From: Elioraea sp. Yellowstone
GTDB lineage: Bacteria; Pseudomonadota; Alphaproteobacteria; Acetobacterales; Acetobacteraceae
Reading direction: 5' to 3'
Assembly: GCF_006704265.1 (NCBI RefSeq)
Contig: NZ_VIKA01000022.1
Location: 1 to 34,890, forward strand
DNA length: 34,890 nt
The position numbers and the translations under genes were made by a program. Positions 17,815 through 27,835 of this stretch are shown piece by piece (position 1 is the first letter of the stretch; each line of letters opens with the position of its first letter). The notes under the pieces were generated by a model. The model was not told the DNA's origin and searched no databases. It saw only the letters and a list, made by a program, of their open reading frames with translations.

Positions 17815-19479
17815 TCACGCCTCGGGCAGCCGCACCACGAACCGCGCGCCGATGACCGCCCCCTTCTCGTCGCGCCGGTTCTCGGCGACGATCCGCCCGC
17901 GCAGCGCCTCGACGATCTGGCGCGAGATCGACAGGCCCAGCCCGGAATGCGTGCCGAACTGCTCCCCCTGCGGCCGCTCCGAGTAGAACCGCTCGAAGAT
18001 GTGTTCGAGCTTGGCCTCGGGAATGCCGGGCCCCTCGTCCTCGACCGCGACCTCCACCATGCCGCCGGTGCGCCGCCCGATCAGCCGGATCGTCCCGCCC
18101 TTCGGGCTGAACGACACCGCATTGCCGATCAGGTTGCGGAACACCTGGACCAGTCGTCCCTCGAGACCGTTCACCGTCAGCCCGGCGGCAGGCGCCTCCA
18201 GCACGAGCCGCGGCGCGTCGGGGGTGCGCGTGGTCTCGTGGATGTCGGCGAGCGTCGCCAGGATCGGCGCGATGTCGACGCGTTCGACGGCGACGCGCGA
18301 GAGCTCGGCATCCACCCGGCTCGCGTCGGAGATGTCGCTGATCAGCCGATCCAGCCGCTTCACGTCGTCGGCGATCACCGCGAGCAGGCGCTGCTGGCGT
18401 TCCGGGTCCTGCACCCGGCGCAGGGTCTCGATCGCGCTGCGGATCGAGGTGAGGGGGTTCTTGATCTCGTGCGCGACGTCGGCGGCGAAGCGTTCGATCG
18501 CGTCCATTCGGTTCCAGAGCGCGGTCGCGCTCTCGTCCAGCGCCTGGGCGAGCGCGCCGATCTCGTCGCGCCGCGCCCTGAGCGAGGGCTGCACCGTGCC
18601 GCGCCGGCCGCGGCCCTCGCGCATCCGCTCGGCGGCGCGCGCAAGCCTGAGCAGCGGGCGCGCGATCGTGGTGGAGAGGTAGAAGGACAGCGCCACGGTC
18701 AGGGCGAGGGCGAGGCCGAAGGCGGCGAGGATCGTCATGCGCACCTGGAACAGGGCCTCGTCCACCTCGCGCGCCTCGCGCGTCAGCAGCACCACCCCGA
18801 CCGTCTCGCGGTTGCGGATCGCCGGCACCGCGACCGACACCACCAGCCGGCCGTCGGCCGTGCGCCGCACCAGGGGCGCACCCTGTCCCTCCACCGCGGC
18901 GGCCAGCAGGGGCCTGATGTCGGGGTTCCATTCGTCGCTCTCGCCGATGACGGGGTAGGACGTCGTGCGGGGCAGGAGCGTCATGACGGCCTCGTAGGCG
19001 GCGACGATCGCGGTGGCGAAGGGCCCACGGCGGGGCGGCGGGGGCGGCAGGGGCTCGGTCGTCACCGCCCCGCCCGGTCCGGTGCGCACGCGGCTGTCGG
19101 CGACGAGTTCGCCCGCGCGATCGTAGAGCCGCGCCTGGGCGAAGGGTGTCGGCTCGACCAGGCGGCGCAGCAGCGGGCGGGCGAGATCCGGCACCAGCAC
19201 CGGACGCTGCGGGTCCTCGATCGAGGTCGCGCTCTCGCCGATCGCGCCGGCGAAGACCTGGGCCTGGACGCGCAAGGAGGCGGCCTCGGCGTCGATCAGC
19301 CCGTCCTGGTAGGTGTCAAGATAGAGGAGGGCCGCCACCAGCAGGCCGAGCGGCAGCGCATTGACCAGCAGGATCCGCCGCAGCAGCGGCGAGAAGACGA
19401 GCTTGCGCAGCCGCCGCGGCGTCCCGCGCGCCGCCCCCTCCGCGGGGCGGGCGCGGCTCAGCGTTCCCGAATCGGGCAT
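17815..19479 (-). CDS. chvG: Sensor histidine kinase ChvG (ExoS family)
   Basis: A 554-aa membrane sensor. Helix 1 is about residues 33-53 (RILLVNALPLGLLVAALLYL), followed by a periplasmic domain of about 200 residues that includes a Pro-rich run (PLPPPPPRRG), then helix 2 near ILAAFGLALALTVALSFYL. HAMP and HisKA domains follow with the phospho-His in DVAHEIKNPLTSIRS, then HATPase_c with NLIGNAVSFSPKGG, DEGPGIP and HSGLGLSISRQIVEA. ChvG/ExoS kinases respond to acid and envelope stress in rhizobia and Agrobacterium. It lies 19 nt downstream of chvI, so the two are cotranscribed. The ATG at 19479 fits the family N-terminus. Confidence 0.94.
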   Translation of the reverse strand: MPDSGTLSRARPAEGAARGTPRRLRKLVFSPLLRRILLVNALPLGLLVAALLYLDTYQDGLIDAEAASLRVQAQVFAGAIGESATSIEDPQRPVLVPDLARPLLRRLVEPTPFAQARLYDRAGELVADSRVRTGPGGAVTTEPLPPPPPRRGPFATAIVAAYEAVMTLLPRTTSYPVIGESDEWNPDIRPLLAAAVEGQGAPLVRRTADGRLVVSVAVPAIRNRETVGVVLLTREAREVDEALFQVRMTILAAFGLALALTVALSFYLSTTIARPLLRLARAAERMREGRGRRGTVQPSLRARRDEIGALAQALDESATALWNRMDAIERFAADVAHEIKNPLTSIRSAIETLRRVQDPERQQRLLAVIADDVKRLDRLISDISDASRVDAELSRVAVERVDIAPILATLADIHETTRTPDAPRLVLEAPAAGLTVNGLEGRLVQVFRNLIGNAVSFSPKGGTIRLIGRRTGGMVEVAVEDEGPGIPEAKLEHIFERFYSERPQGEQFGTHSGLGLSISRQIVEALRGRIVAENRRDEKGAVIGARFVVRLPEA

Positions 19480-19498
19480 TCCGGCACCGCGGCGGAGG

Positions 19499-20260
19499 TC
19501 ATTCCTCCTTGTAGCGGTAGCCGATGCCGTAGAGGGTCTCGATCTGCGCGAAGCCGCTGTCGACCGCGCGGAACTTCTTGCGGATGCGCTTCACGTGGCT
19601 GTCGATCGTGCGGTCGTCGACGTAGATGTTCTCGCCATAGGCGGCGTCGATCAGCTGGTCGCGGCTCTTGACGATCCCCGGCCGCGCGGCGAGCGCCTTG
19701 ACCAGCAGGAACTCGGTCACCGTGAGCTGCACCGGCTGGCCCTTCCAGGTGCAGAGATGGCGGTTCTCGTCCAGCGAGAGCGACCCGCGGACCATCACGC
19801 CGCCGGGCGGCTGGCCCGAACCCTCGCCGCGCGCGAGCTCGTTGCGGCGCAAGAGCGCGCGGATGCGCTCGATCACGAGGCGCTGGCTGAACGGCTTGGT
19901 GATGTAGTCGTCCGCGCCGAGCCTGAGACCCATCAGCTCGTCCACCTCCTCGTCCTTGGAGGTGAGGAAGATCACGGGCAGCGCCGTCTGCTTGCGCAGG
20001 CGCTGCAGGAGTTCGAGCCCGTCCATGCGCGGCATCTTGATGTCCAGCACGGCGAGATCGACCGGCTTGGTGGTGAGCCCATGCAACGCGCTCTCGCCGT
20101 CCGTATAGGTGCGGACCTGGTATCCCTCGGCCTCGAGCGTCATCGCGAGCGAGGTGAGGATGTTGCGGTCGTCGTCGACCAGGGCGATCGTCTGCGGCAT
20201 CGGGGCCTCGACCAGTGGCGCGGGCTGGGTGGAGGCCTGGGCGGTCATCGCGGTCTGCAT
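19499..20260 (-). CDS. chvI: Response regulator ChvI
   Basis: OmpR/PhoB-type transcription factor phosphorylated by ChvG. The receiver domain starts [24 protein letters not shown], with the phospho-acceptor Asp in [12 protein letters not shown] and the conserved Lys in [11 protein letters not shown]; the winged-helix domain has [12 protein letters not shown] and [17 protein letters not shown]. Start choice: ATG 20260 (253 aa) keeps a G/C-ending codon pattern from the first codon. ATG 20248, or ATG 20200 with GAGG 6 nt upstream (233 aa, nearer the family length), are real alternatives. The N-terminal 20 residues are low-complexity. Divergent from the HugZ-like gene with only 55 bp between starts if 20260 is right. 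Confidence 0.93.
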
Positions 20261-20315
20261 GGCCCCCAGGTTCGCGCGCCATTGTGGCCGATCTCGGACG
20301 GAACAGGAACGGATC

Positions 20316-21077
20316 ATGGCACGCGCACCGGACAACGCAGCCCCCCCACCCGAGGTTGCAGCCCGCCGCCTGATCCGGGCTGCGAAGGAGGCGACGCTCG
20401 CGACCATGGCGGCAGGCGGCCAGCCCTTCGCCTCGCTGGTCACGCCGGCGACCGCGGGGGACCTTTCGGTGCTGCTCTGGCTCTCGCGGCTCTCCGCGCA
20501 TACCCGCCATCTCGCAGCCGATCCGCGCTGCGCGCTGCTGTTCGCCGGCGCGGCGCGGGGCCCCAATCCGCAGCGCCGGCCGCGCGTGACGGTGACAGGC
20601 CTCGCCCAGCGGCCCGGCCCCGAGGAACGGGCCGCGCTGAAGGCCCGCTGGCTGGCGCGCCACCCCTATGCCGGGCCCTACGCCGAACTCGGCGACTTCG
20701 ACCTCTGGCGGGTCGTGCCCCAGGAGGCGCTCTATGTCGGCGGGTTCGCGCTGGCGCGGCGGATCGCCGGCACGGCGCTGCGCCCGTCGGCCGAGGCGGT
20801 GGCCGCCCTCGCCGGCGCCGAGCCGGGCATCCTCGCCCATGTCAACGCCGACCATGCCGACGCGGTCGACGCCATCGCGCAGGGGCTGCTGCGCCGCCGT
20901 GGGACGGGCTGGCGCCTCGTGGCGGTGGACACCGACGGCTGCGACCTCGCGCGCGGGAACCAGGTGGTGCGTCTCGCGTTCTCCTCGCCGGTCGGCGACG
21001 CCGGCGGGGTGCGCGAGGCCCTGGTCCTGGCGGCGAGGCACGCCCGGGCACGGCTCAAAAACAAGCGGCTGTCGTGA
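20316..21077 (+). CDS. HugZ-like FMN-binding split-barrel protein with DUF2470
   Basis: A 253-aa protein. The N-terminal half is a pyridoxamine 5'-phosphate oxidase-like split barrel ([40 protein letters not shown]), and the C-terminal domain has [13 protein letters not shown] near residues 175-187, the DUF2470 signature. This pairing is found in HugZ/HutZ heme-degrading or heme-storage proteins; enzymatic heme breakdown is a family inference. Start ATG 20316 follows AGGAACGG. It stands between chvI and pckA, which are usually direct neighbours in alphaproteobacteria, so a shared promoter region with chvI is possible. No heme uptake genes are visible. Confidence 0.82.
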
Positions 21078-21091
21078 AAATTTGTCATCTT

Positions 21092-21120
21092 TTGACCGCG
21101 TTCGCGCGCCAGCGTATCCA
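21092..21120 (+). promoter_or_regulatory. Sigma-70-type promoter of pckA
   Basis: TTGACC (21092-21097), a 17-nt spacer and TATCCA (21115-21120) form a good housekeeping promoter 57 nt upstream of the pckA ATG. It lies in an AT-rich patch (AAAATTTGTCATCTTTTGAC) that also holds a GTCA-N5-TGAC dyad overlapping the -35. A regulator such as ChvI could bind there; that is a guess from gene order. Confidence 0.6.
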
Positions 21121-21176
21121 GGCGCCGATCCTGCCCGGCCGTCCCAGCCCATGAGAAACGACGCGAGGAGACGTTC

Positions 21177-22766
21177 ATGTCCGCGCCTGTCCTCGACATC
21201 CCCGGTCTTGCCCCCACCGCGGCGGTGCGCGCCAACCTCTCGGCGCCCGCGCTGATCGAGCTCGCCGTCGCGCGCGGCGAGGGCCGGCTCGCCGCTTCCG
21301 GCGCGCTCGTGGTCAACACCGGCCAGCACACCGGTCGCAGCGCGCGCGACAAGTTCGTCGTCGAGGAGCCCTGCGCGCGCGACGAGATCGACTGGGGCGC
21401 GGTGAACCAGCCGCTCGCGCCCGAACGCTTCGCCGTCCTGCGCGGCCGCGTCGCCGCCCATCTCGGCGCCCGGCCGCTCTTCGTGCAGGACCTCTTCGCC
21501 GGTGCCGATCCCGCGCACCGGCTGCGGGTGCGCGTGATCACCACCGGCGCCTGGCACGCCCTGTTCGCGCGCAACATGTTCATCCGCCCCGCCGCCCGGG
21601 AGCGCGCCGGCTTCGTCCCCGACTGGACGATCCTGCACGCGCCCGAGTTCCGCGCCGACCCGGCGATCGACGGCACGCGCAGCGACTGCGCGATCGCGCT
21701 CTCCTTCGAACGGCGCGAGGTTGTGATCTGCGGCACCGGCTACGCGGGCGAGATCAAGAAGTCGATCTTCACCGTGATGAACCACGTCCTGCCCGCGCGC
21801 GGCGTGCTGCCGATGCACTGTTCGGCCAATGTCGGCGAGGCGGGCGACGTCGCGCTGTTCTTCGGCCTTTCCGGCACCGGCAAGACCACGCTCTCCTCCG
21901 ATCCCGCGCGCCGGCTGGTCGGCGACGACGAGCACGGCTGGGCCGAGGGCGGCACCTTCAACGTCGAGGGCGGCTGCTACGCCAAGGTGATCCGCCTCGA
22001 TCCCGAGGCCGAGCCGCAGATCTGGGCCGCGACGCACCGTTTCGGCACCGTGCTCGAGAACGTGGTGATGGACGAGGCGACCGGCGAACTCGACCTTGCC
22101 GATGCCCGCTTCACCGAGAACACGCGCGCCTGCTACCCGATCGAGTTCATCTCCGGCGTGCTGCCGGGCGGACGCACGGGCCAGCCGAAGCACGTCTTCA
22201 TGCTCACCGCGGACGCCTTCGGCGTCCTGCCGCCGATCGCGAAGCTCACGCCGCAGCAGGCGATGTACCACTTCCTCTCCGGCTACACCGCGCGCGTCGC
22301 CGGTACCGAGAAGGGGCTCGGCAAGGAGCCGCAAGCGACGTTCTCCGCCTGCTTCGGCGCGCCCTTCCTGACACGCCCCGCCGCGGTGTACGGGCGGATG
22401 CTGCAGGACCTCATCGCGCGCCACCGCACCGCCTGCTGGCTCGTCAACACCGGCTGGACCGGCGGCCGGCACGGCGCGGGGCGGCGCATGAGCATCCGCG
22501 ACACGCGCGCGCTGCTCGCCGCCGCGCTCGACGGCAGCCTCGCGCGCGCCGAGATGCGCACCGATCCGTTCTTCGGCCTCAGCGTGCCGACCGCCTGCCC
22601 GGGCATCGATCCGAAGCTGCTCGACCCGCGCGCGACCTGGGCCGACCCGGTCGCCTACGACGCCGCCGCGCGCGACCTCGTCGCCCGCTTCGAGCGGAAC
22701 TTCGCCGCCTTCGCCGCCGAGGTGGACGACGGCGTGCGCCAGGCCGCGATCCGCGCGGCGGCCTGA
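21177..22766 (+). CDS. pckA: Phosphoenolpyruvate carboxykinase (ATP)
   Basis: Converts oxaloacetate + ATP to PEP + CO2 + ADP, the entry step of gluconeogenesis. The 529-aa product is full length. The N-terminal ALVVNTGQHTGRSARDKFVV, the metal/phosphate site GTGYAGEIKKSIFTVMN, the P-loop FFGLSGTGKTTLSSD (GLSGTGKT at 230-237) and the adenine site region WLVNTGWTGG are all intact. ATG 21177 is preceded by GAGGAG with a 7-nt spacer. In Agrobacterium pckA sits beside chvI-chvG and responds to acid; the same linkage is seen here, interrupted by the HugZ-like gene. The PTS genes beyond chvG extend the carbon-control theme. The stop is 8 nt from the convergent small CobW-like gene. Confidence 0.98.
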   Translation: MSAPVLDIPGLAPTAAVRANLSAPALIELAVARGEGRLAASGALVVNTGQHTGRSARDKFVVEEPCARDEIDWGAVNQPLAPERFAVLRGRVAAHLGARPLFVQDLFAGADPAHRLRVRVITTGAWHALFARNMFIRPAARERAGFVPDWTILHAPEFRADPAIDGTRSDCAIALSFERREVVICGTGYAGEIKKSIFTVMNHVLPARGVLPMHCSANVGEAGDVALFFGLSGTGKTTLSSDPARRLVGDDEHGWAEGGTFNVEGGCYAKVIRLDPEAEPQIWAATHRFGTVLENVVMDEATGELDLADARFTENTRACYPIEFISGVLPGGRTGQPKHVFMLTADAFGVLPPIAKLTPQQAMYHFLSGYTARVAGTEKGLGKEPQATFSACFGAPFLTRPAAVYGRMLQDLIARHRTACWLVNTGWTGGRHGAGRRMSIRDTRALLAAALDGSLARAEMRTDPFFGLSVPTACPGIDPKLLDPRATWADPVAYDAAARDLVARFERNFAAFAAEVDDGVRQAAIRAAA

Positions 22767-22773
22767 ACGGCGC

Positions 22774-23109
22774 TCAGGGCTCCGCCGCCAGGCGGAAGCG
22801 CGAGGCCACGAGGGGGTCCGCCAGCGCGGCGGGATCGACGCGCGTGCTGCGCACCTCGACGCGATCGAACCACGGCGCCGCGCCCTGCGCGCGACGCAAG
22901 AAGAGCCGATGCAGCGCCGTCGCCAGCGCGGCGCGCGGTGCGCAGCACGGGCAGGCGGCGGCATGGCCCGCACGACCGGGCGCGAGGCGCTCGATCAGAG
23001 GGTGCGACCGCGGAACGAGCGCGCTCCACTCCACCACCAGTGCCGTACCGGGCGGCGGGCCGCCGGGCGCGGGGGGGACGATCCTCACAGGGATCCGGTC
23101 GTCGGACAT
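22774..23109 (-). CDS. Small CobW/COG0523-like protein without P-loop
   Basis: A 111-aa protein. Its middle ACPCCAPRAALATALHRLFL and following RRAQGAAPWFDRVEVRSTR, then DPLVASRFRL, align by eye with the segment of COG0523 (CobW/P47K) GTPases that runs from the metal-binding CxCC through the FDRV-ETTG-L-DP region. The P-loop that should precede it is absent: the N-terminal half is GIPVRIVPPAPGG-like and Pro/Gly-rich. So it may be a stand-alone metal-binding relic or a conserved small paralogue. Start ATG 23109 avoids the palindrome at 23127-23147; an upstream ATG at 23142 lies inside it. It follows korB on the same strand and converges with pckA. Confidence 0.65.
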   Translation of the reverse strand: MSDDRIPVRIVPPAPGGPPPGTALVVEWSALVPRSHPLIERLAPGRAGHAAACPCCAPRAALATALHRLFLRRAQGAAPWFDRVEVRSTRVDPAALADPLVASRFRLAAEP

Positions 23110-23126
23110 TGCGCGAACAGCACCGT

Positions 23127-23147
23127 GGGGGATGACGGTCATCCCCC
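23127..23147. repeat. Perfect 21-nt palindrome (terminator or operator)
   Basis: GGGGGATGAC-G-GTCATCCCCC: 10-bp arms around one base. In RNA it can form an 8-bp stem with a 5-nt loop. It lies 19 nt after the korB stop and 17 nt before the small CobW-like gene on the minus strand. No U tract follows. It could end the kor transcript or bind a dimeric regulator of the small gene. Confidence 0.6.
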
Positions 23148-23166
23148 CTGCGCGGGGTCGCTCCGG

Positions 23167-24219
23167 TCAGCGCAAGGCGGCGTTGATCTTCTCCAGCGCC
23201 GCCGCCCCTGGGCAGAGCGCGGCATCGTCGAGACGGTTCAGCGGCGTGGCCACCGTGCCGAGGCGCCGATGCAGGTCCTCGGCCTCGGCATTGACGTACA
23301 GGAGCCCCGTGACGATCTCGCCCATCGCCCGGTGGCGCGCGAGATAGGTCATCGCCGCCACGCGATCCGTCGGGTCGTGGTCCTCGTGCCGCTTGCGCAG
23401 GCGCAGCACCGACCCGTCATGCTGTGTCACCTCGACGAGCTCGCCCGGCGCATAGGACGCCGTGATCTCGCTGCGATCGAAGAACACGTCCAGCCGGTTC
23501 ACCGCCTCGTTGTGCTCGCGCACATAGTCGTAGCTCTTGGTGCTGCCATCGTGGTTGTTGAATGCCACGCACGGGCTGATGCAGTCGATGAAGGCGACCC
23601 CGCCATGCGTGAGCGCGCCCTTGATCAGCGGCACGAGCTGCTCCTTGTCGCCCGAGAAGCTGCGCGCGACATAGGTCGCGCCGAGCTCGATCGCGAGCGC
23701 GACGAGGTCGATCGGCTGGTCGGCGTTCACCGTCCCCCGCTTCGCCTTCGAGCCCTTGTCGGAGGTGGCCGAGAACTGGCCCTTGGTCAGGCCGTAGACG
23801 CCGTTGTTCTCGACGATGTAGGTCATGTTCACCCCGCGGCGCATCAGATGCATGAACTGGCCGATGCCGATGTTCGCGCTGTCGCCGTCGCCCGAGACGC
23901 CGAGATAGACCAGCTCGCGATTGGCGAGGTTGGCGCCCGTCAGCACCGAGGGCATGCGCCCGTGCACCGAGTTGAAGCCGTGGCTCGCGCCGAGGAAGTA
24001 GTCCGGCGTCTTCGAGGAACAGCCGATGCCCGAGAGCTTCGCCACGCGGTGCGGCGCGATGCCGAGCTCCCACATCGCCTGGATGATCGCGGCACTGATC
24101 GAGTCGTGCCCGCACCCGGCGCAGAGCGTGGAGATCGAGCCCTCGTAGTCGCGCCGCGTGAGGCCGAGCGCGTTGACCGGCAGCTTGGGGTGATGCAGGG
24201 CAGGCTTCAGGTAGCTCAT
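23167..24219 (-). CDS. korB: 2-oxoacid:acceptor oxidoreductase, beta subunit
   Basis: The thiamine-diphosphate subunit of a 2-oxoacid:ferredoxin oxidoreductase, probably acting on 2-oxoglutarate (to succinyl-CoA). At 350 aa it is normal length. STLCAGCGHDSISAAIIQ holds the cysteines near the iron-sulfur/TPP site, GDGDSANIGIGQFMHLMRR and VENNGVYGLTKGQFSATS are the TPP-Mg motif region, and ISPCVAFNNHDGSTKSY follows. ATG 24219 overlaps the korA stop as ATGA, so the subunits are made in step. Pyruvate as substrate cannot be excluded from sequence, but the fused alpha subunit and this beta form are usual for KorAB. Confidence 0.93.
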   Translation of the reverse strand: MSYLKPALHHPKLPVNALGLTRRDYEGSISTLCAGCGHDSISAAIIQAMWELGIAPHRVAKLSGIGCSSKTPDYFLGASHGFNSVHGRMPSVLTGANLANRELVYLGVSGDGDSANIGIGQFMHLMRRGVNMTYIVENNGVYGLTKGQFSATSDKGSKAKRGTVNADQPIDLVALAIELGATYVARSFSGDKEQLVPLIKGALTHGGVAFIDCISPCVAFNNHDGSTKSYDYVREHNEAVNRLDVFFDRSEITASYAPGELVEVTQHDGSVLRLRKRHEDHDPTDRVAAMTYLARHRAMGEIVTGLLYVNAEAEDLHRRLGTVATPLNRLDDAALCPGAAALEKINAALR

Positions 24220-26048
24220 GACACGGTCTTCCGCAGCGGCACCACGTCGAGCGAGCGGGCCTGGCGGCCGATCGCGGTGCGGATGAAGCGGGCGGTGATC
24301 GGCGTGCCGTCGTAGTGAAGGATCGGCACCAGCCTGGCGGGATCGATCCCGCATTCGGTCGTGATCAGCGTGCGTAGCTGCGCGTCGCGGTTCTGCTCCA
24401 CCACGAACACCGTCTCGTGCGCCTCGATGAACCGCACCACGTCGTCATGGAACGGGAAGGCGCGCACGCGCAGCGCGTCGAGATGCACCCCGTCCTCCTC
24501 GAGTCCGGCCAGCGCCTCGCGCATCGGCGCGGCGGTGCTGCCGTAGTGGATCACGCCGTAGGGGGTGGCGCGGCCGGCCTTGCGCTCCACCGGCCGCGGC
24601 ACCAGCGACTTCGCCGTCTCGAACTTCCTGAGCAGGCGCTGCATGTTGTCGACATAGGCCGCGCCCTGCTCGGTGTACCGCGCGAAGCGGTCGCGCGAGG
24701 TGCCGCGCGTGAAGAACGCGCCCTTCGAGGGATGCGTGCCGGGATAGGTGCGGTAGGGGATGCCGTCGCCGTCCACGTCGAGATAGCGGCCGAAGACCGC
24801 GCCCGCCTCCAGCATCTCGGCGGTCATCACCTTGCCGCGGTCCATCCGCCGCGCATCGTCCCAGGCGAAGGGCTCGCACAGCCAGTCGTTCATGCCGATG
24901 TCGAGATCGAGCATGACGAAGATCGTGGTCTGCAGCCGGTCGGCGAGGTCGAAGGCGGCTGCGCCGAACTCGAAGCACTCGCGCGGGTCCTCGGGCAGCA
25001 GCAGCACGTGCTTGGTGTCGCCATGGCCGGCATAGGCCGCGGCGAGGATGTCGGCCTGCTGCGTGCGCGTCGGCATCCCCGTCGAGGGGCCGGCGCGCTG
25101 CACGTCGAAGATCACCGCCGGGACCTCGGCGAAGTAGGAGAGGCCGACGAACTCCTGCATCAGCGAGACGCCTGGCCCAGAGGTCGCGGTGAAGGCGCGC
25201 GCGCCGTTCCATCCTGCGCCGATCACGATGCCGATGCTCGCGAGCTCGTCCTCGGCCTGCACGATCGCGTAGCGCTTGCGCCCGTCGGGATCGGTGCGGA
25301 AGCGCCGGCAGTGGCGCTCGAAGGCCTCCGCGAGCGAGGTCGAAGGCGTGATCGGGTACCAGGCGCACACGGTCGCCCCGCCATAGAGCGCGCCGAGCGC
25401 CGCGGCCGAGTTGCCGTCCACGTAGATGCGGTTGCCCACCGCGTCGGCTGGCTCCAGCCTGAGCCCGATCGGCGGCAGGTTGGCCGCCGCCCAGTCGCGG
25501 CCCATGTGGAACGCCTCGCGGTTCGCGCCGGCGAGGCGCTCCTTGCCCTTGTACTGCTCGGCGAGCAGCTGCTCGACCTTCGCCGGATCGATGCCGAGCA
25601 GGTGCGAGAGCGCGCCCACGTACATGATGTTCTTGAACAGTTGCCGCTGGCGCGCGTCCGTGTAGCGGGCGTTGCACATCTCGGTCAGCGGCACGCCGAG
25701 CACGGTGACATCGTCGCGGAACCTGCTCCTCGGCAGCGTCTTGGTGCTGTCGTAGAGCAGGTAGCCGCCCGGCTCGATCTCGGCGATGTCGCGATCCCAG
25801 GTCTGCGGGTTCATTGCCACCGCCATGTCGACCCCGCCGCGCCGCCCGAGATGGCCCGCGCCGCTGACGCGCACCTCGAACCAGGTCGGCAGGCCCTGGA
25901 TGTTCGAGGGGAAGATGTTGCGCGAGGCGATCGGGATGCCCATGCGCAGGATCGACTTCGCGAACAGCTGGTTGGCCGAGGCCGAACCGGAGCCGTTGAC
26001 GTTCGCGAACTTGACGACGAAGTCGTTGACGGCCGTCAGCGTCTGCAT
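24216..26048 (-). CDS. korA: 2-oxoacid:acceptor oxidoreductase, alpha subunit (gamma-alpha fusion)
   Basis: A 610-aa subunit in which the gamma domain comes first (residues 1 to about 185: NGSGSASANQLFAKSILRMGIP, CoA/subunit binding) and the alpha domain follows (GNSAAALGALYGGATVCAWYP, ITPSTSLAEAF, QAEDELASIGIVIGA, ATSGPGVSLMQE). This fused layout is standard for KorA of aerobic bacteria. The final domain (VHLDALRVRAFPFHDDVV, VFVVEQNRDAQLRTLI) completes it. ATG 26048 lies within the end of the upstream flavoprotein gene (13-nt overlap). The oxidoreductase could run in the citric acid cycle in place of 2-oxoglutarate dehydrogenase or in reductive carboxylation. Confidence 0.94.
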   Translation of the reverse strand: MQTLTAVNDFVVKFANVNGSGSASANQLFAKSILRMGIPIASRNIFPSNIQGLPTWFEVRVSGAGHLGRRGGVDMAVAMNPQTWDRDIAEIEPGGYLLYDSTKTLPRSRFRDDVTVLGVPLTEMCNARYTDARQRQLFKNIMYVGALSHLLGIDPAKVEQLLAEQYKGKERLAGANREAFHMGRDWAAANLPPIGLRLEPADAVGNRIYVDGNSAAALGALYGGATVCAWYPITPSTSLAEAFERHCRRFRTDPDGRKRYAIVQAEDELASIGIVIGAGWNGARAFTATSGPGVSLMQEFVGLSYFAEVPAVIFDVQRAGPSTGMPTRTQQADILAAAYAGHGDTKHVLLLPEDPRECFEFGAAAFDLADRLQTTIFVMLDLDIGMNDWLCEPFAWDDARRMDRGKVMTAEMLEAGAVFGRYLDVDGDGIPYRTYPGTHPSKGAFFTRGTSRDRFARYTEQGAAYVDNMQRLLRKFETAKSLVPRPVERKAGRATPYGVIHYGSTAAPMREALAGLEEDGVHLDALRVRAFPFHDDVVRFIEAHETVFVVEQNRDAQLRTLITTECGIDPARLVPILHYDGTPITARFIRTAIGRQARSLDVVPLRKTVS

Positions 26049-27835
26049 GCGTGCGCCCCGCTCGCGTAGGTCTTCGCGGTTTCCAGGTAGAACTTCTGCA
26101 TGTCCCATGCGCCGGTGGGGCAGCGTTCCGCGCACAGGCCGCAGTGCAGGCAGACGTCCTCATCCTTCACCATCACCCGGCCGGTCTTCAAACCGTCGGC
26201 GAGGTAGAGATCCTGATCGGGGTTGATCGCCGGCGCCTTCAGCCGCGTGCGCAGCTCGTCCTCGGGGCCGTTCTCGGTGAAGGTGATGCAGTCGGTCGGG
26301 CAGATGTCCACGCAGCCGTCGCACTCGATGCAGAGCTTCGCGTCGAACACGGTCTGCACGTCGCAGTTGAGGCAGCGTTCCGCCTCCTTGTAGGCGAGGT
26401 CGCGGTCGTAGCCGAGCTCCACCTCGACGCGGATGTCGCGCAGCGCGATCCGCTCCTCGACATGCGGCACCTTGTAGCGGAGGTCGATCGAGACGTCGTT
26501 GTCGTAGCTCCACTCGTGGATGCCCATCTTCTGGCTGGACATGCGCACATGCGGGTCGGGCCGCGCGTGCACGTCCTCGCCGCGGCAGAACAGGTCGATC
26601 GAGATCGCGACCTCGTGGCCGTGCGCCACCGCCCAGATGATGTTCTTCGGCCCGAACGCCGCGTCGCCGCCGAAGAACACGCTCGGCAGCGTCGATTGCA
26701 GCGTCACCGGGTCGAGCTTCGGCAGTCCCCGGCGGTCGAACGCGATCCCGATGTCGCGCTCGATCCAGGGGAAGGCGTTCTCCTGGCCGATCGCCACCAG
26801 CACGTCGTCGCACGCGAAGGTCACCTCCGGCTCACCGGTGGGGACGAGGGTGCGCCGCCCCTCGGCGTCGTGCTCGGCCTTCACCTTCTCGAACACCATC
26901 CCGGCGAGCCGGCCGTTCTCGTGCAGCACGCGCTTCGGCACCAGCCAGTTGAGGATCGGGATGCCCTCGCGCATCGCGTCCTCCTTCTCCCACGGCGACG
27001 CTTTCATCTCCTCGAAGCCGGAGCGGACGATCACCTTCACGTCCTCGCCGCCCAGCCGGCGCGCGGAGCGGCAGCAGTCCATCGCCGTGTTGCCGCCGCC
27101 CAGCACCAGCACGCGCCTGCCGATCCGCTCGATGTGGCCGAACGAGACCTTCGCCAGCCACTCGATGCCGATATGGATGTTCGCTGCGGCCTCCTTGCGC
27201 CCGGGCACGTCGAGATCGCGGCCGCGCGGCGCGCCGCAGCCGACGAACACCGCGTCGTAGCCTTCAGCGAGCAACGCCTTCAGGCTCTGCACGCGATGAT
27301 TGTAGTGCGTGACCACGCCGCCGCGCCCGGTGATGTAGCCCACCTCCTCCTCAATCACGCTCTCGGGCAGGCGGAAGCGCGGGATCTGGGTCCACATGAA
27401 CCCCCCGCCCTTGGCCTCGGAATCGTAGATGTGGACCTCGTAGCCGATGAGGGCGAGATCGCGCGCCACCGTCAGGCTTGCCGGGCCGGCGCCGACGCAG
27501 GCGATGCGCTTGCCGTTCTTCAGTGCCGGCACGGGCGGCATCCGGCGCAGCACCTCGTCCTTGTTGTCGGCGGCCACGCGCTTCAGCCGGCAGATCGCCA
27601 CCGGCTCCGCCTCCACCCGGCCGCGGCGGCAGGCCGGCTCGCAGGGGCGGTCGCAGGTCCGCCCGAGGATGCCGGGGAAGACGTTGGAGTGCCAGTTGAT
27701 CATGTAGGCGTCGGTGTAGCGCCCCGCCGCGATCAGCCGGATGTATTCCGGCACGGGGGTATGCGCCGGGCACGCCCACTGGCAGTCCACCACCTTGTGG
27801 AAGTGGGTGGGGGTGTTGAGGTCGGTCGGCTTCAA
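26036..27835 (-). CDS. GltD-like FAD/NAD(P) oxidoreductase fused to two [4Fe-4S] clusters (KorC-like), TTG start
   Basis: A 599-aa iron-sulfur flavoprotein. Residues 1-80 have GltD-type cysteines (CQWACPAHTPVPEY; GRTCDRPCEPACRRG), followed by an FAD fold (CVGAGPASLTVARDLALIGY) and an NAD(P) fold (VLVLGGGNTAMDCCRSARRL). The C-terminal domain is a 2x[4Fe-4S] ferredoxin (CIECDGCVDICPTDC; CLHCGLCAERCPTG). It begins the kor operon, and the likely role is to move electrons between KorAB and NAD(P)H or ferredoxin, as described for the flavoprotein subunit of 2-oxoglutarate:NADP oxidoreductase in Azoarcus-type bacteria. The start is TTG 27835 with GGAGGAA 5 nt upstream; no ATG or GTG near the N-terminus competes. 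Confidence 0.9.
   Translation of the reverse strand: MKPTDLNTPTHFHKVVDCQWACPAHTPVPEYIRLIAAGRYTDAYMINWHSNVFPGILGRTCDRPCEPACRRGRVEAEPVAICRLKRVAADNKDEVLRRMPPVPALKNGKRIACVGAGPASLTVARDLALIGYEVHIYDSEAKGGGFMWTQIPRFRLPESVIEEEVGYITGRGGVVTHYNHRVQSLKALLAEGYDAVFVGCGAPRGRDLDVPGRKEAAANIHIGIEWLAKVSFGHIERIGRRVLVLGGGNTAMDCCRSARRLGGEDVKVIVRSGFEEMKASPWEKEDAMREGIPILNWLVPKRVLHENGRLAGMVFEKVKAEHDAEGRRTLVPTGEPEVTFACDDVLVAIGQENAFPWIERDIGIAFDRRGLPKLDPVTLQSTLPSVFFGGDAAFGPKNIIWAVAHGHEVAISIDLFCRGEDVHARPDPHVRMSSQKMGIHEWSYDNDVSIDLRYKVPHVEERIALRDIRVEVELGYDRDLAYKEAERCLNCDVQTVFDAKLCIECDGCVDICPTDCITFTENGPEDELRTRLKAPAINPDQDLYLADGLKTGRVMVKDEDVCLHCGLCAERCPTGAWDMQKFYLETAKTYASGAHACRR

Follow-up and report, generated by a model that had tools for sequence, protein, structure and literature searches.

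The homocysteine domain of cobalamin-dependent MetH needs a thiolate-bound Zn, and we know of no dedicated factor to which the filling of this site in the cell has been assigned. Genes for the COG0523 or CobW-type GTPases (PF02492 and PF07683; E. coli YjiA, CobW) are often Zur-regulated. As set out in part of PMC7895991, the CxCC motif of this parent family is taken as a site for Co(II) or Zn(II) rather than for corrinoids, and the high-affinity Co site of CobW needs Mg and the gamma-phosphate of GTP. According to passages of a survey of the group, members of COG0523 subfamily 13 are found together with corrinoid methyltransferases in archaeal genomes (Haas et al., 2009, PMC2770081). The main text of a study of SahR in Proteobacteria describes a 20-bp palindrome as the binding site of this regulator and places metH in its core regulon (Leyn et al., 2014, PMC4239095). 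In the open-access literature we found neither a COG0523 protein without a P-loop nor a dedicated MetH metallochaperone.

The gene studied here lies at 22774..23109 on the minus strand of a 34,890-nucleotide stretch of DNA from Elioraea sp. Yellowstone (hereafter the window) and encodes a CobW-derived, P-loop-less protein of 111 amino acids (start ATG 23109, stop 22774-22776). A longer open reading frame, 22774-23142(-), contains this ATG in frame, and homology with relatives favours it as the start over the in-frame ATG at 23142. GC content at codon positions 1/2/3 is 0.79/0.64/0.88, compared with 0.71/0.53/0.95 in pckA and 0.67/0.47/0.89 in korB, two neighbours to which, as to korA, Pfam domains could be assigned. 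On one side lies korB (23167..24315, minus strand; Pfam TPP_enzyme_C), named by context as the beta subunit of a 2-oxoacid:ferredoxin oxidoreductase, and on the other pckA (21177..22766, plus strand; Pfam PEPCK_ATP), the ATP-dependent PEP carboxykinase, which by neighbour clustering also adjoins the short gene in genomes G002 and G003. A sequence-only reading had described a COG0523-like protein without the GTPase P-loop, directly after korAB, and both statements hold: the protein has CPCC followed by a helix, FDRVEV and DPLVASRFRL, a scan of its sequence finds no GxxxxGK[ST], homology to CobW extends over its whole length and the gap to korB is 57 bp. Taken alone, the window protein found no match in Pfam, nor in a PDB sequence search as single query; within genome G000, of which the window makes up all of contig C144, the one further match is to a full-length CobW on contig C321 (E 3e-7, 35% identity).

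Of 60 relatives' genomes, 36 match the window protein at E <= 0.01, with many of the matches being short genes and some full-length CobW. From 29 short genes we built a family alignment, and the resulting profile matched 184 of 220 genomes of the taxonomic family (Elioraea and relatives; NCBI lineage of Elioraea: Acetobacterales, Elioraeaceae) at E <= 1e-3. E-value alone cannot split short forms from full-length CobW, which reach 8e-19, and the figure of about 169 of 220 genomes with the short gene comes from sorting by hand. It comprises 162 genomes with matches at E <= 2.4e-12 (part of them opened, the rest counted on E-value), three more that were opened (G076, G183, G197) and four counted as carriers on short or contig-edge frames (G127, G175, G210, G225). 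Fifteen matching genomes were excluded: 14 of them match best within frames of at least 338 aa, and G020 matches best through a full-length CobW (L032) and has no short gene beside its metH. None of the 29 aligned members passes a Pfam or NCBIfam threshold: cobW (PF02492) is listed for two of them at E <= 1 (best E 0.13) and NF008578, 'GTPase', for three (best E 0.013). The short gene forms an uncatalogued family, which both collections miss. Members as low as 25% identical to the window protein over the whole length still keep the metal motif, and dN/dS across the family, a comparison that the sequence-only reading had proposed, has a median of 0.33 and a maximum of 0.59 (75 pairs); the family is under purifying selection. 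In some genera (L141, L127, L132 and similar) the frames run to about 170-190 aa, with extra residues N-terminal to the conserved core.

With the COG0523 GTPases the short protein shares strand 1, strand 2 with the switch region, the CxCC motif, the helix and strand that follow it, the DP..ARFRL segment and, in all likelihood, the use of a metal. It differs from them in having no P-loop and no ExxG, in ending before NKxD and CobW_C, in an extra invariant His before CxCC and in its linkage to metH. As a GTPase it falls outside COG0523 on four sequence features (P-loop, ExxG, NKxD, CobW_C) and on the Pfam threshold. Where CobW has the P-loop GxxGxGK[ST], hhalign leaves a gap; the stretch aligned with the Walker B motif hhhExxG reads VEVRSTRVD, without ExxG; the chain stops before the [NST]KxD region and ends at residue 111, without CobW_C and with no Pfam match; and CxCC is present in 29 of 29 aligned members. 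The missing P-loop and first helix map to codons 12-21 (23047..23076, minus strand), where the AlphaFold model joins strand 6-11 to strand 22-27 with no helix between, and the strand that precedes ExxG in CobW maps to codons 83-86 (22852..22863, minus strand), modelled as a strand at 83-87 and paired by hhalign with VIIETTGLADP. Subfamily 13 is alike in its clustering with corrinoid-dependent methyltransferases, but its members are counted among the GTPases and neighbour mta genes in archaeal and clostridial genomes, and the corresponding passages of the survey describe no short P-loop-less form (PMC2770081). In a search of 337 genomes of the class at E <= 1e-9 (a threshold that weaker short forms could escape), all matches outside the taxonomic family lie in frames of at least 321 aa except one, in G414. 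This CobW homologue (family f100, L168:4213-5007) likewise has CxCC and no P-loop; it differs in its length (265 aa, in a frame of 269 aa), in keeping CobW_C, in having no His before CxCC and in not standing beside metH, which is on another contig, and it represents an independent loss of the GTPase P-loop. The short family is derived from COG0523 and distinct from it.

The proposed metal site is the motif HxxxCxCC (H-A-A-A-C-P-C-C, codons 49-56; 22942..22965, minus strand). Five positions are invariant in the 29 aligned genes, namely P7, H49, C53, C55 and C56; the spacing is H-x3-CxCC in 28 of these genes and H-x5-CxCC in one. Over a wider set, His precedes CxCC in 82 of 82 genes, at the H-x3 spacing in 80 (53 of 54 genes, 23 of 23 later members, mostly picked for weak match, and four more) and at H-x5 in two (G025, G123). 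The His is missing at that place in all 30 full-length CobWs of three sets (10 + 5 + 15), and in the 14 full-length CobWs of the tree alignment the residue there is Leu, Met or Thr. Relative to CobW the motif has been altered by an added His, not merely retained. Three thiols and one imidazole would make a complete tetrahedral ligand set, and it is from this set that we infer metal binding. The earlier suggestion that a fragment of a GTPase has become a metal-binding partner stands as regards the fragment, with CobW homology over the full length, GTPase motifs lost and an invariant His with CxCC; for metal binding itself these ligands make a presumptive case.

Neighbour clustering pointed to metH. 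In 26 of 29 loci the short gene adjoins one protein of ~1160 aa, which is full-length MetH (the spurious locus L065 was left out of these counts, and L114, L147 and L169 are uninformative stubs of 50-100 bases). Among the 118 genomes with a metH match that were compared, drawn from 150 listed short-gene rows, the short gene and metH are divergent and no more than 3 kb apart in 111; 23 of these pairs are direct (gap <500 bp), and in the other 88 a stretch of 0.9-1.8 kb, in nearly every case close to 1 kb, separates the two genes. The seven non-adjacent cases are G000, which is the window genome, G018, G028, G236, G072, G202 and G121. In G018 (L049, contig C311) the short gene lies ~1.5 kb from a full-length CobW, convergent with it, and metH is on another contig. 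Scored by TIGR02082 at E <= 1e-80, MetH is present in 195 of the 220 genomes of the taxonomic family; the short gene is found in 169 of these 195 and in none of the 25 MetH-less genomes (Fisher 4e-19, uncorrected for kinship). Those 25 consist of 20 listed genomes, spread over 13 genera, and five deduced from numbering gaps (G198, G219, G222, G228, G238), none of which is among the family-profile matches at E <= 1e-3; five MetH-less genomes have weak profile matches, and these are full-length CobW. We found no short gene in 26 of the 195 MetH-positive genomes, some of which have metH at a contig end, so that MetH can do without it and the gene is accessory rather than an absolute need. The link of the short gene to MetH is nonetheless strong. 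Near metH we also observed a Cation_efflux (CDF) cluster in 13 of 29 loci (for instance L041:13354-14238 and L042:15392-15967) and a cobalamin adenosyltransferase (Cob_adeno_trans) cluster in seven of 29, the identity of each cluster being taken from one member. In G004 (contig C43), an Elioraea genome that is 81% complete, metH matches come in four pieces, two with internal stop codons, and no short gene was found, which may reflect joint decay or poor assembly.

Wherever it was opened, that is in 17 clustered loci, L038 and L047, which represent part of the 88 genomes, the gene of ~1 kb between the short gene and metH encodes an ArsR-type HTH and a methyltransferase; in L047 Pfam places HTH_5 and Methyltransf_11 in one gene. 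SahR has this fused architecture, and we call the gene SahR-like by its architecture and its genomic context rather than by a tree. Upstream of the short gene stands a 20-bp palindrome, ACATAA-N8-TTATGT, found with at most two mismatches in 45 of 54 loci, in 44 of the 45 within 40 bp of the profile match; downstream control stretches have it in 0 of 53 at this stringency and in one at three mismatches. The E. tepidiphila palindrome separates the start codon of the short gene from that of the sahR-like gene. Its 20-bp length and the SahR-like gene alongside suggest that in most loci the palindrome is of SahR type. A tie to Zur, our first idea, was set aside, since the palindrome has the length of a SahR site and adjoins a SahR-like gene. 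Five genomes (G020, G081, G124, G088, G163; loci L145, L146, L148, L150, L151) have a perfect palindrome upstream of metH and no short gene beside it. The arrangement is thus like the published SahR regulon in its ArsR-type regulator, its 20-bp palindrome and metH as a core target; it differs in that the main text of that study names no CobW-like target and contains neither 'cobw' nor 'cog0523' (PMC4239095).

We propose, with a probability of about 0.5, that the short protein, a derivative of COG0523, acts on its own and without GTP as a metal-binding helper dedicated to cobalamin-dependent MetH; metal binding and chaperone action are what we infer, and the metal is most likely Zn2+. More tentatively, at somewhat under even odds, we would specify it as a GTPase-less metallochaperone, a CobW-derived, nucleotide-independent carrier that holds its metal on His and three Cys and has MetH as its single client. 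S-adenosylhomocysteine would lift repression by SahR, and the short protein would then be made together with MetH. The added His and the three Cys would offer a ready-made, four-ligand tetrahedral site that replaces the Mg-GTP-built site of CobW, Zn would be carried on H49, C53, C55 and C56 without GTP, and the protein would hand the metal to the thiolate Zn site of the MetH homocysteine domain or protect that site. In support we count the ancestry by hhalign and structural match, the motif counts, the metH linkage, the palindrome, dN/dS, the Cation_efflux and Cob_adeno_trans neighbours and the published findings on the Co site of CobW and on subfamily 13; against it we count the 26 MetH-positive genomes without the short gene, the low model confidence around the motif, the Foldseek result, the Z-score below 8, the failure of single members to reach Pfam or NCBIfam thresholds, and the window species, whose gene lies away from metH and the palindrome. 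A small conserved protein with an invariant thiol and His motif and a near-exclusive bond to metH makes the filling of the MetH Zn site a directly testable question. If the proposal is true, MetH would have a metal-delivery factor of its own, and the protein would exemplify a G3E GTPase pared down to the metal site; and should GTP-gated binding be replaced by a ready-made site that includes the added His, the GTPase cycle of COG0523 would serve control and not delivery as such.

The same linkage to MetH, together with the cobalamin adenosyltransferase cluster near metH, could also be expected of a helper on the cobalamin side, which would use its thiols to bind the cobalt of cobalamin or a domain of MetH, aiding loading or reactivation of the cofactor instead of carrying Zn. 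We consider this unlikely, given that the parent CxCC is treated in PMC7895991 as a Co(II)/Zn(II) and not a corrinoid site and that the added His completes a four-ligand set; the structural matches include no cobalamin-binding domain, which is not an exclusion. Doubtful to the same degree is a regulatory or buffering protein, one that responds to Zn or to the thiol state and inhibits or modulates either MetH or the SahR-like repressor, or one that just holds Zn. Its small size and invariant ligands, the shared regulatory region and the tolerated absence in some lineages would suit such a role, but 23 of the 111 adjacent genomes have the short gene directly at metH with no ~1 kb gene between, and from these pairs the constant partner at the locus is MetH, not the regulator.

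Returning to the preferred reading of a COG0523-derived helper, its ancestry was assessed by profile and by structure, as the sequence-only reading had proposed. In hhalign, the family profile aligned with that of ten full-length CobW G-domains with a probability of 98.8 and an E-value of 6.7e-17 over 114 columns. The match starts at strand 1, breaks at the P-loop and helix 1 and resumes at the switch region and CxCC, and the short proteins end just after the ARFRL segment; they thereby cover the CobW G-domain up to about residue 138, minus the P-loop and first helix. An AlphaFold (AF2) model of the short protein (pLDDT 88, pTM 0.81; least confident around the motif, with pLDDT ~68 at residues 41-60) has Zn-bound YjiA as its best structural match (Z 6.7 over 91 residues, 2.8 A; next Z 4.6), although the aligner cautions that a Z under 8 may reflect merely a common arrangement. 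Short and full-length forms (29 and 14 sequences) fall into separate groups in a tree, which has few columns and no reliable rooting. A profile search whose best match was a fatty acid hydroxylase (E 0.48) gave no lead. That an unrelated small CxCC zinc protein resembles CobW by chance, as the middling Z, the single sequences below the Pfam cobW threshold and a Foldseek search with nothing below E 0.001 (YjiA ranked first at E 1.5) might hint, is very improbable beside a profile-profile match that covers both flanks of the motif, a structural alignment to YjiA that is collinear (model 3-111 to chain 1-127) and full-length CobWs of other families that match the family profile down to E 8e-19. 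The short protein is descended from a COG0523 GTPase over its full length.

In the window the gene has lost its usual setting. In E. tepidiphila, contig C12, with pckA and the short gene, is collinear with positions 17815-23103, and contig C20, with korBA, is collinear with 23167-27009, which places a rearrangement joint at 23104..23166, in the interval from the korB stop to the start of the short gene. The best match to the palindrome upstream of the window gene has five mismatches. In the same genome metH is on contig C315, which starts inside the sahR-like gene (L108:1-702), and C31:8755-9096 (L179) holds the beginning of that gene together with a perfect palindrome. What used to be one intergenic region is thus split over two contigs, with other sequence following on each, and this favours a real rearrangement; as the assembly is in 358 pieces, a misjoin has some residual probability. 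The palindrome on C31 now faces a different gene, whose start looks RecO-like by eye. A functional tie to kor or pckA, which the sequence-only reading had suggested as context, was rejected on the neighbour clustering, the adjacency to metH elsewhere and the rearrangement here: korB is a neighbour through the rearrangement, the usual partner is metH, and the position in this species would mislead an annotator to kor.

The window copy itself shows neither decay nor acceleration. Its dN/dS is 0.26 against G003 and 0.20 against G002, pairwise values that also cover the time before the move and are not proof of constraint since; the protein is 52-56% identical to three other aligned Elioraea, much as G002 and G003 are (51-57%), and departs at one of 25 conserved columns. 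The earlier idea of a decaying pseudogene of a CobW paralogue, to which the loss of the GTPase motifs and of the upstream palindrome in the window copy might lend colour, is hardly credible given these values, the gene's presence in about 169 of 220 genomes and a motif kept even at 25% identity, and no homologue with a complete P-loop and a frameshift at that place was seen; for the family, the sequence comparisons refute it. A terminator scan found no T-tailed stem at 23127-23147, in the interval between korB and the short gene, where a perfect 21-nt inverted repeat, GGGGGATGACGGTCATCCCCC (23127..23147), has one match in the window and none in 100 shuffles.
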